DNA from: an uncultured Roseobacter sp.
GTDB lineage: Bacteria > Pseudomonadota > Alphaproteobacteria > Rhodobacterales > Rhodobacteraceae
Reading direction: 5' to 3'
Assembly: GCF_947499265.1 (NCBI RefSeq)
Contig: NZ_CANMNK010000001.1
Coordinates: 891,001-955,000, forward strand
Length of the DNA: 64,000 nt
The notes beneath the pieces were generated by a model. That model saw nothing but the letters and a program-made list of their open reading frames with translations, was not told the DNA's origin and searched no databases. How positions within the stretch are numbered: the stretch's first letter is position 1; the number at the start of each line of letters is the position of its first letter. Both the position numbers and the translations under genes were made by a program. Positions 6,053-20,790 of this stretch are shown here, one piece after another.

Positions 6053-7621
6053 TCAGCTTACGTCTTTATAGCTGATCTCGCGTTTGTCCTTGCCGCCCTT
6101 TTCGCGACGGACGAGCAGCCGATTGAGCGCGTGGATATAGGCCAGCGCCGAGGCGACAACGGTATCGGTATTGGCCGACTGGCCGGTCACGATGCGCCCG
6201 TCTTCTTCCATGCGTACGGATACCGTCGCCTGTGCGTCAGTTCCTTCAGTGACGGCGTGCACCTGGTAAAGCTGCAGGCGCGCGGTATGCGGCACCAGGG
6301 CCTTGATGGCATTGAACGACGCATCGACGGGGCCATCGCCGGTTTGCGCGGTCGAATGCGTGTCGCCGTCGATCTCCATCACCAGATCGGCCTGTTGCGG
6401 CCCGTCCGTGCCACAGATCACCTTCAGCGACTTGAGCTTCAACCGGTCGTTTTCCGGATCTGAAGATGTGCGCATCAGCGCGATCAGGTCATCGTCGTAG
6501 ATTTCCTTCTTGCGGTCCGCCAACTCCTTGAAGCGCACAAACACGTCCTTGAGCTGGTTGTCGCCCAATTCAAACCCGAGGTCTTCAAGCTTTGACCGCA
6601 ACGCCGCGCGCCCCGAATGTTTGCCCATCACCAGGTTCGTTTCAGACAGCCCCACGTCCTCGGGGCGCATGATCTCGAAGGTCTCCGCGTTTTTCAGCAT
6701 GCCGTCTTGATGAATGCCGGATTCATGGGCAAAGGCGTTCTTGCCGACAATCGCCTTGTTGAACTGCACCGGGAACCCGGAGACGGTCGCGACGCGGCGG
6801 GAGATGTTCATGATCTTGGTGCTGTCGATGCCGGTCTGGTAGGGCATGATGTCGTTGCGCACCTTCATCGCCATGACGACTTCTTCAAGCGCTGTGTTGC
6901 CCGCACGTTCCCCCAGGCCATTGATCGTGCACTCAATCTGGCGCGCCCCCGCTTCGACGGCGGCGAGGCTGTTGGCCGTCGCCATGCCGAGATCGTTGTG
7001 GCAATGGGTGGCAAATGTAATCTCATCCGCGCCCGGCACACGCCGCAGCAACATGGCGATCAGCTCTGCACTTTCGCGCGGCGCCGTATAACCGACCGTA
7101 TCGGGGATATTGATTGTCGTGGCGCCGGCCTTGATGGCAATCTCGACCACCCGGCAAAGGTAATCCTCTTCCGTACGTGTCGCATCCATCGGCGACCACT
7201 GCACATTGTCGCAGAGATTGCGCGCATGGGTCACCGTTTCATGAATGCGATCCGCCATCTGATCCATATCGAGGTTGGGAATGGCGCGGTGCAGAGGCGA
7301 GGTGCCGATAAACGTATGAATACGTGGACGGCGCGCGTGTTTCACCGCTTCCCAACACCGATCGATATCGCCGAATTGCGCGCGGGCAAGCCCGCAGATC
7401 ACCGATGTCTGCGCCATCTTGGCAATCTCGGAAACGGCGGCGAAATCGCCTTCGGAAGCAATGGGGAAACCGGCTTCGATGATGTCGACGCCCATCTCGT
7501 CCAGGAGCCCGGCGATTTCGAGCTTTTCGGCATGGGTCATGGTCGCACCCGGGGATTGTTCGCCATCGCGCAACGTGGTGTCAAAAATCAGGACGCGGTC
7601 CTGTTTGGATTTATCTGTCAT
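6053..7621 (-). CDS. leuA: 2-isopropylmalate synthase
   Basis: Catalyses the committed step of leucine synthesis, condensing acetyl-CoA with 2-oxoisovalerate. The 522-residue protein starts at ATG 7621 (MTDKSKQDRVLIFDTTLRDG); the open frame extends 16 codons further but lacks family similarity there. Motifs include DTTLRDGEQSPGA, the metal-binding histidines in THCHNDLGMATANS, NGLGERAGN, and GKNAFAHESGIHQDG; a C-terminal leucine-binding regulatory domain (VCGTDGPQQADLV onward) is present, so feedback inhibition by leucine is expected. A 26-codon Leu-rich leader and a hairpin lie upstream (7656-7780), pointing to attenuation as a second level of control. Confidence 0.97.
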   Translation of the reverse strand: MTDKSKQDRVLIFDTTLRDGEQSPGATMTHAEKLEIAGLLDEMGVDIIEAGFPIASEGDFAAVSEIAKMAQTSVICGLARAQFGDIDRCWEAVKHARRPRIHTFIGTSPLHRAIPNLDMDQMADRIHETVTHARNLCDNVQWSPMDATRTEEDYLCRVVEIAIKAGATTINIPDTVGYTAPRESAELIAMLLRRVPGADEITFATHCHNDLGMATANSLAAVEAGARQIECTINGLGERAGNTALEEVVMAMKVRNDIMPYQTGIDSTKIMNISRRVATVSGFPVQFNKAIVGKNAFAHESGIHQDGMLKNAETFEIMRPEDVGLSETNLVMGKHSGRAALRSKLEDLGFELGDNQLKDVFVRFKELADRKKEIYDDDLIALMRTSSDPENDRLKLKSLKVICGTDGPQQADLVMEIDGDTHSTAQTGDGPVDASFNAIKALVPHTARLQLYQVHAVTEGTDAQATVSVRMEEDGRIVTGQSANTDTVVASALAYIHALNRLLVRREKGGKDKREISYKDVS

Positions 7622-7655
7622 GTCTGGTTCTTTCGATTTTCTGCTGTTTTTGCCT

Positions 7656-7706
7656 GGCGCGCTGCACATCCCTCTGAGCGGGCGCGCCGAAGGGCACGCT
7701 CAGAGG
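7656..7706 (-). promoter_or_regulatory. Candidate leuA attenuator hairpins
   Basis: In the leuA transcript a perfect 10-bp stem pairs CCTCTGAGCG (7706-7697) with CGCTCAGAGG (7680-7671). Its 5' arm contains the stop codon of the leader peptide. An alternative stem pairs GGCGCGC (7688-7681 region) with GCGCGCC (7662-7656), overlapping the loop and 3' side of the first, so the two can exclude each other. No U-run follows, so the outcome may be translational or Rho-dependent rather than intrinsic termination. Structure is seen; function is inferred. Confidence 0.6.
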
Positions 7707-7780
7707 CGGGTTAGCAGCAGAGCGGCGGCAGGGCGCAAAAAGGTGCGCGGGCAGGGTGCGATATGTGAAATCGGTGCCAT
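7700..7780 (-). CDS. leuL: leuA leader peptide (26 codons, Leu-rich)
   Basis: A short ORF, ATG 7780 to TGA 7700, begins MAPISHIAPCP and ends AAALLLTRL. Four of its last six codons are leucine (CTG CTG CTA ACC CGC CTC), followed immediately by TGA inside the 5' arm of the 7671-7706 hairpin. This is the arrangement of classical amino-acid attenuation leaders, where a ribosome stalled at Leu codons changes the downstream fold. No Shine-Dalgarno is evident; a TATAAA hexamer ends 7 nt before the ATG, so the message may be leaderless, as known for trpL of Sinorhizobium meliloti. The symbol leuL is by analogy. Confidence 0.72.
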   Translation of the reverse strand: MAPISHIAPCPRTFLRPAAALLLTRL

Positions 7781-7787
7781 GCGCCCG

Positions 7788-7793
7788 TTTATA
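7788..7793 (-). promoter_or_regulatory. Candidate -10 element for the leu leader transcript
   Basis: TATAAA on the minus strand ends 7 nt before the leader ATG at 7780, which would put the transcription start at or within one or two bases of that ATG. The matching -35 region (TTCCCA or CTTCCC, 16-17 nt upstream) is poor, so the promoter is tentative. Confidence 0.4.
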
Positions 7794-7894
7794 CCGCCCC
7801 TTGCGTAAATGGGAAGGTGGTTTTTTTGGCATTTGCAATCCGCGGCCCTCCGCTCGGACTTGAAGCAGGGCCGCCCTCTTCTAAGTCGCTCAGG

Positions 7895-8560
7895 ATGAAT
7901 AGAGTTTTGATTATCGGGGCCTCCGGTGGCATTGGCAGTGCGGTGGCAGCGACCTGCCGCCTGCGCGGCGATGAGGTGGTGACATTATCGCGGTCGGAAG
8001 ATGGGTTCGACATCACGGATGAGCCGTCTGTTTCCGCGCATCTGGAGGCGGTTCAGGGGGTGTTCGACCTTGTGCTGGTTGCAACCGGTGCCCTTGAAAT
8101 TGGGGGCGCGGCCCCCGAGAAATCCATCAAGTCAGTCACTGCAAAGGCGATGATGGATCAGTTTGCGCTCAATGCGCTGGGGCCTGCATTGGTGCTGCGC
8201 CATGCGGCGGCTTTGTTGCCGCGCGACAGGCCTGCCGTGATGGCCGTGCTGTCGGCGCGGGTGGGGTCCATCGGGGACAATCGGATTGGCGGATGGGTCA
8301 GCTACCGCAGCGCCAAGGCGGCGGTGAACCAGATCGTCCATACCACCGCCATTGAGCTGACACGCACGCATAAACACTCGATTTGCGTGGCCCTTCATCC
8401 GGGCACGGTCGCCACGCCTTTCACCGAGAAATATCTGGGCCGGCACCCTTCCGTGCCTGCTGAGGAAGCGGCTGAAAACCTATTGCGGGTGATCAGCGGC
8501 CTGAGCCCCGATCAGACCGGCGGGTTTTATGATTGGGCGGGTAAGGAGGTGCCGTGGTGA
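7895..8560 (+). CDS. SDR-family NAD(P)-dependent oxidoreductase
   Basis: Short-chain dehydrogenase of 221 residues. The N-terminal MNRVLIIGASGGIGSAVAA is the Rossmann dinucleotide-binding motif (GASGGIG, 8-14), and a catalytic Tyr-x3-Lys is seen in GWVSYRSAKAAVNQ, preceded by the LSARVGS active-site Ser strand. I start at ATG 7895, which begins exactly at the Rossmann strand; the open frame before it has no family character. The substrate cannot be told. Its stop overlaps the start of the photolyase gene (GTGGTGA), so the two are co-translated, a pairing that may reflect shared light or stress regulation. Confidence 0.88.
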   Translation: MNRVLIIGASGGIGSAVAATCRLRGDEVVTLSRSEDGFDITDEPSVSAHLEAVQGVFDLVLVATGALEIGGAAPEKSIKSVTAKAMMDQFALNALGPALVLRHAAALLPRDRPAVMAVLSARVGSIGDNRIGGWVSYRSAKAAVNQIVHTTAIELTRTHKHSICVALHPGTVATPFTEKYLGRHPSVPAEEAAENLLRVISGLSPDQTGGFYDWAGKEVPW

Positions 8561-20624: not shown

Positions 20625-20790
20625 ACATCCCGCCCGGGAGAACCGGCTGCAAAGCCGGTGCCGAAGGAGCAACCGCCCCGGAAACTCTCAGGCCACCGGA
20701 CCGTGCGGGACTGCAAAACTCTGGAGAGAGGTGCCCGATGAGGTGCCCGCCGAAGGGATAACGATCTCAGGCGAAAAGACAGAGGGGGCA
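20625..20790 (+). promoter_or_regulatory. Tandem glycine riboswitch
   Basis: Two glycine aptamers in series upstream of gcvT. Aptamer 1: P1 stem TCCCGC (20628-20633) with GCGGGA (20705-20710), containing GCCGAAGGAGCAA and AAACTCTCAGGC. Aptamer 2: P1 stem CTCTG (20719-20723) with CAGAG (20780-20784), containing GCCGAAGGGATAA and ATCTCAGGCGAAAAGACAGA. A short linker joins them, as in known cooperative glycine riboswitches. Downstream small hairpins (20797-20811; 20820-20848) may form the expression platform. High glycine should switch on the cleavage operon. Confidence 0.93.

Follow-up and report, generated by a model that had tools for sequence, protein, structure and literature searches.

How is leuA controlled in a bacterium in which a short ORF ending in a run of Leu codons precedes the gene? 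The question is raised by a 64,000-nucleotide stretch of DNA from an uncultured Roseobacter sp. (contig NZ_CANMNK010000001.1, positions 891,001 to 955,000; here termed the window and numbered from its first letter). A preliminary description of this window, made from the sequence itself, had proposed a leucine leader peptide for leuA together with an attenuator made of two stems that replace one another. In the current study, we followed up this proposal by comparing the locus with those of its relatives.

The leuA locus and its relatives

In the window, leuA (2-isopropylmalate synthase, 522 aa, similar to leuA-annotated records) occupies positions 6053 to 7621 of the minus strand, as do all of the leader features described below. 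The longest in-frame leuA ORF starts at 7669, and the in-frame ATG at 7669-7667 (-), 16 codons upstream, falls within the leader structure; because this ATG is not kept in the genus alignment, we took 7621 as the start, as in the relatives. The best Shine-Dalgarno-like match of leuA, GAAAG (7630-7634, -), lies 8 nt before the ATG and is weak. Among other records, one Streptomyces plasmid carries a 2-isopropylmalate synthase gene adjoining an MFS transporter gene.

A total of 110 loci were fetched, comprising 80 named leuA loci (the best among 596 encoding a relative) and 30 from a set of 99 genomes (90 of which matched); the window is itself one of these loci (L081). Most of the counts given below refer to 72 nonredundant loci, and the pairs L001/L082 and L020/L087 look like duplicates. 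Every one of the 110 loci carries the leader element, which adjoins leuA at 105 and, at the other 5, precedes a cupin gene ahead of leuA. Absence at these 5 loci was considered and rejected, since a covariance model placed the element further upstream in every one of them. The preliminary description had suggested alignment among relatives as a check, and its ORF, both of its stems, and the promoter do align in 19 genomes of the genus (the window's own and 18 others).

Wider searches used a covariance model (R1) and its alignment (A2), for which 37 loci were picked by eye; the match counts are lower bounds, as divergent members are missed (e.g., G041). With this model, matches at an E value of 0.1 were obtained in 70 of the 385 genomes searched from the class, and leuA lay downstream in each of the 30 best class matches (the window included), 25 of which are from outside the family. 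In a sample of the phylum, 50 of 398 genomes matched at an E value of 0.01, and all 50 were the window's own or belonged to the same family or the same class. The window's own genome gave a single match, the element itself. G041 gave no R1 match, but absence of the element there was rejected, since inspection by eye revealed a leader of the LLLLTLR variant with TATAGT 8 nt before its ATG. G750, from the same genus as G041, likewise gave no match to R1.

The leader ORF and its Leu codons

The 26-codon ORF reported upstream of leuA is present at 7780-7700 (-) and encodes MAPISHIAPCPRTFLRPAAALLLTRL, with its TGA at 7702-7700 and Leu codons at four of its final six positions. It is kept in the genus and the family, and the stop codon was TGA at 105 of 105 loci. 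At least four Leu codons fall within the last nine leader codons at 69 of the 72 nonredundant loci, which supports the proposal of a leucine leader peptide for leuA. Leaders usually end in LLLL(S/T/I)RL, and at one locus (L009) no in-frame ATG was found ahead of the contig edge. A Paracoccus-like variant (L041, L045, L054, L069, and L153) ends instead in LLLLTLR; at these loci the stem termed P2 below starts with GCGCTGAGCG and has fewer pairs, and TGCC/GGCG in its loop is replaced by GGTC/GGCC.

Leu codons 21 to 23 in the window read CTG CTG CTA (7712-7720, -). The last of these, at codon -12 from the stop (7714-7712), is CTA or CTT at 71 of the 72 loci, compared with 188 of 2,062 (9%) of the Leu codons of the leuA coding sequences. 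Possible explanations for this bias are pairing in the helix that we call P1 (see below) and slow decoding.

The promoter and a probably leaderless start

As the preliminary description had noted, a TATAAA box (7793-7788, -) stands 7 nt before the leader ATG at 7780. A -35-like element, CTTCCC (7811-7816, -), is found 17 nt upstream of this -10 box, and at this distance its two T's were invariant in the 43 promoters, out of the 72 nonredundant loci, that we aligned; a C directly preceded the ATG in 36 of these 43. An exact TATA[AG]H box occurred once each, within 160 nt upstream of the stop, at 47 of the 72 loci, and for 45 of the 47 boxes the first ATG past the box was 6 to 9 nt off and shared the reading frame of the Leu run. 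The two exceptions were L002, in which an out-of-frame ATG comes first, and L049, in which no ATG follows the box within 40 nt. TATA[AG]H lies 5 to 8 nt ahead of an in-frame ATG at 44 of the 72 loci. The exact box was absent at 25 of the 72 loci, several of which have near matches, such as CATAGT and TATCGT.

The simplest reading of this spacing and frame is that the leader ATG supplies the first nucleotide of the transcript (the A at 7780, -), 7 nt past the -10 box, and that the leader is probably leaderless; what had been offered as a possibility thus becomes, on comparative grounds, the probable arrangement. Many mRNAs of Caulobacter are leaderless (375; PMC4117421), and the Sinorhizobium meliloti trpL RNA starts at its ATG (PMC7298713). 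The intergenic region that holds the leuA promoter is shared with a divergent ORF (7817-8560, +) that by eye resembles a short-chain dehydrogenase.

P2 and P3 fit a pseudoknot

Downstream of the Leu run, the stem P2 is formed by CCTCTGAGCG (7706-7697) and CGCTCAGAGG (7680-7671), its 5′ and 3′ arms being CCUCUGAGCG (7697-7706, -) and CGCUCAGAGG (7671-7680, -). All 10 of its 10 pairs form in the window, and the leader stop codon lies inside its 5′ arm, just as had been described. The stem P3 extends from the P2 loop to a downstream segment, joining GGCGCGC (7688-7682, -) to GCGCGCC (7662-7656, -) in 7 bp. Among relatives, P2 had 10 of 10 pairs at 96 of 105 loci and 7 to 9 pairs at the remaining 9, and the best P3 helix had 5 to 11 pairs at all 105. 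The linkers are short: L2 measured 0 to 4 nt at 105 of 105 loci, and L3 measured 5 to 11 nt at 103 of the 105, with L027 and L030 falling outside this range and seemingly misparsed for P3 or P2.

Covariation was scored in an alignment (A1) of 68 of the 72 nonredundant loci, in which the window stands in for L081 and the reversed loci L100, L106, L107, and L108 are omitted. P2 was paired in 98.4% of its cells, with changes on both sides at the three outer pairs; its core is highly conserved in sequence, four pairs being invariant across the 68 loci. P3, together with a two-pair extension, was paired in 79.6% of cells, with both-side changes at two pairs. When cognate P3 pairings were compared with permuted ones across the 72 nonredundant loci, z was 6.8 and none of 20,000 permutations (which ignore relatedness) scored as high. 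Over the whole structure, the covariation score was 0.119, compared with 0.073 in shuffles, and 36 cells had both-side changes, compared with 14.4 in shuffles (0 of 500 as high in each case). Relative to the shuffles, neither the count of pairs changed on both sides nor that of pair types was unusual (76 and 78 of 500 as high, respectively).

P2 and P3 share no base, both covary, and the linkers between them are short, which fits an H-type pseudoknot. The preliminary description had treated these two stems as mutually exclusive; with no base in common, neither has to give way to the other. A small hairpin within the P2 loop, P2b, does compete with P3; in it, UGCC (7693-7696, -) pairs with GGCG (7688-7685), so that P2b overlaps the P3 5′ arm. 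P2b is able to form, in competition with P3, at 103 of the 105 loci, and it was paired in all 37 loci of alignment A2. P3 and P2b, which have this segment in common, both lack a U-run behind them. P2 is retained outside the family; P3 was looked for at 25 such loci (one of them misparsed) and was not found (z = -0.7).

A predicted helix linking the Leu codons to the next ribosome-binding region

The preliminary description missed a further helix, P1, which is predicted from the comparison to join the Leu codons to the ribosome-binding region of the following gene. In the window, it consists of 7 bp between UCUGCUG, in the Leu codons (7715-7721, -), and CAGCAGA (7640-7646, -), whose end is 18 nt from the leuA ATG; the helix misses the weak GAAAG. 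The fold of the window is uninformative on this point (in the minimum-energy structure, the Leu codons have other partners, and the energy computed for 7600-7780 is unremarkable, with a z of -1.35 and 22 of 200 shuffles folding as well), so the case rests on comparison. Across the 72 nonredundant loci, the cognate P1 pairing score was 16.3, compared with 12.6 for noncognate pairings (z = 9.8; 0 of 20,000 permutations, which ignore relatedness, as high). Three controls in the same pairing test gave z values of 0.1, 1.2, and 2.2, the last of these for the part of the leader that precedes the Leu run (263 of 20,000 as high).

P1 distances could be scored at 70 of the 72 loci, as L006 and L104 gave no P1. 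The helix ended a median of 19 nt before the assigned ATG and lay within 20 nt of it at 43 of the 70 loci; it overlapped the leuA Shine-Dalgarno match by at least 2 bases at 12 of the 70, usually ending upstream of it. For L047 and L110, the leuA starts were set too far downstream, so that the distances recorded are too long and an overlap with the nearer Shine-Dalgarno sequence was missed. Outside the family, P1 again stood out (z = 4.4; 0 of 20,000 as high) among 25 loci, including the misparsed L126, whose stop is TAG. With L126 dropped, the Leu run makes 8 to 10 bp with AAGGA of leuA at 8 of the 24 loci, two of which (L134 and L135) are near identical.

At seven loci, the element and leuA are separated by a cupin-like gene (named by eye; about 118 codons). 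These are five of the 110 (L022, L024, L042, L051, and L079, in which the leader stop is 430 to 487 nt before leuA) and two from the class search (L114 and L118); in L049, an eighth cupin match (42% identity) occupies a different place in the locus. At six of the seven, P1 comprises 8 to 11 bp and ends 5 to 8 nt before the cupin start, on what by eye is the Shine-Dalgarno sequence of the cupin gene. At the seventh (L024), it has 6 bp and ends 14 nt before the start.

A proposed mechanism and its alternatives

Taken together, we favor, at a probability of roughly 0.7, a ribosome-mediated translational attenuator that is built like the actinobacterial LEU element and operates in Alphaproteobacteria. 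Transcription would begin with the leader's start codon (at its A), and the leucine peptide would be translated from this leaderless message. When there is ample charged Leu-tRNA, the ribosome would pass the Leu codons, open P2, stop at the UGA within it, and leave, after which the P2/P3 pseudoknot would refold and the Leu codons would form P1. P1, whose 3′ arm lies on the Shine-Dalgarno sequence of the next gene or a short way before it, would presumably cause that gene to be translated poorly. If Leu-tRNA were instead scarce, the ribosome would wait on the Leu codons and occupy the P1 5′ arm, P1 would be blocked, and the gene would be translated. As its position suggests, the pseudoknot may serve to slow translation while the last Leu codons are read; its 5′ edge lies 5 to 8 nt beyond the A site when codons -12 and -15 are read.

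The preliminary description left the level of control open and pointed to the lack of a U-run, which comparison bears out: TTTT occurs within 50 nt past P2 at only 4 of the 72 loci and not in the window. This lack makes intrinsic termination unlikely, and translational control is favored because P1 sits at the ribosome-binding region of whichever gene is first. The same observations weigh against a classical transcription attenuator, in which P2 would be the antiterminator, P3 (GGCGCGC/GCGCGCC) the terminator, and ribosome position the determinant of which one forms. A Leu-run leader whose stop lies in the P2 5′ arm is what such a device would have, and that arm would be covered by a ribosome halted at the stop. 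However, the two stems have no base in common and fit a pseudoknot, no U-run is conserved, and the covariation of P1 would go unexplained. We therefore rejected this reading as very unlikely.

Termination could still depend on Rho, with the untranslated stretch past the leader stop allowing Rho to act unless the ribosome stalls. The absence of an intrinsic terminator agrees with this, and Rho was raised in PMC1262725 for cys leaders without terminators. Just 81 nt separate the leader stop from the leuA ATG in the window, however, much of it within P2, P3, and P1, and neither P1 nor its place on the cupin Shine-Dalgarno sequence would be accounted for; we consider Rho-dependent attenuation very unlikely. 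Another suggestion, made for the actinobacterial LEU element in PMC1262725, is an RNA element that binds a protein or ligand, the leader ORF being secondary. The strong conservation of the P2 core, with its four invariant pairs, is the kind of feature that a binding site would have, but a pure binding site would need neither a conserved in-frame leader with its Leu run nor the bias at codon -12 nor leaderless-type spacing, and so this reading, too, appears unlikely.

Relation to known leader elements

The layout described here is of the same kind as that of the actinobacterial LEU element. Upstream of leuA in actinobacteria, Seliverstov et al. (2005; PMC1262725) described a leader with a Leu run, a pseudoknot, a base stem that joins the Leu codons to the Shine-Dalgarno sequence, and an alternative hairpin, and they left the mechanism open; they noted, citing others, that leader mutations in Streptomyces coelicolor did not behave as in classical attenuation, and they themselves proposed a binding protein. 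Further actinobacterial examples include the Streptomyces lividans leuA leader MRFGLLLLSCRGEGL, which contains LLLL, is leaderless, and lacks a typical terminator (PMC8079986), and Corynebacterium leuA leaders with four Leu (PMC4046766 and PMC5784534). The present element shares with the LEU element the Leu-run leader before leuA, a putative pseudoknot, and the alternative hairpin; pairing of Leu codons with the Shine-Dalgarno sequence itself is predicted at a part of its loci. It differs in being alphaproteobacterial, in having its stop codon within P2, in that P1 in the window falls short of the Shine-Dalgarno match, and in that P3 was not seen outside the family. One tentative possibility, to which we give somewhat less than even odds, is that the two form a single class of attenuator spanning Alphaproteobacteria and Actinobacteria, in which the Leu codons act as an anti-Shine-Dalgarno arm, the pseudoknot as a brake on the ribosome translating a leaderless leader, and the whole follows whichever gene leads the leucine operon.

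The leaderless trpL of S. meliloti (rnTrpL/peTrpL; PMC7298713 and PMC10117765) is similar in that a leader peptide precedes a biosynthetic gene and the mRNA starts from the leader ATG. In contrast to that trp attenuator, the present element has no terminator, and its regulatory codons are predicted to form a helix with the region at which ribosomes bind the following gene. We did not find a description of the alphaproteobacterial element in open-license papers; two articles known to us from citations (FEMS Microbiol Lett 2004, 234:357, and Mol Biol 2010, 44:128) may mention it.

A second, well-conserved set of such elements in Alphaproteobacteria, which offers covariation between Leu codons and the ribosome-binding region as well as natural loci with a gene between the element and leuA, makes a ribosome-based explanation directly testable.

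In translational attenuators of the erm type, a stalled ribosome uncovers a hidden ribosome-binding site. Here, the signal would be scarce Leu-tRNA rather than a drug, and the regulatory codons are themselves the predicted pairing arm. A Leu-codon leader peptide before leuA is also found in the Leu_leader of Gammaproteobacteria (Rfam RF00512). The present element is similar in this respect, but its region gave no Rfam match even at E values of up to 10, and it represents a leaderless-type, terminator-free amino acid leader without a match in Rfam 15. When the whole window was searched at the gathering thresholds, there was likewise no match for the leader element, and the only hit was a glycine riboswitch (RF00504; 62.1 bits) at 20625-20713 on the plus strand.
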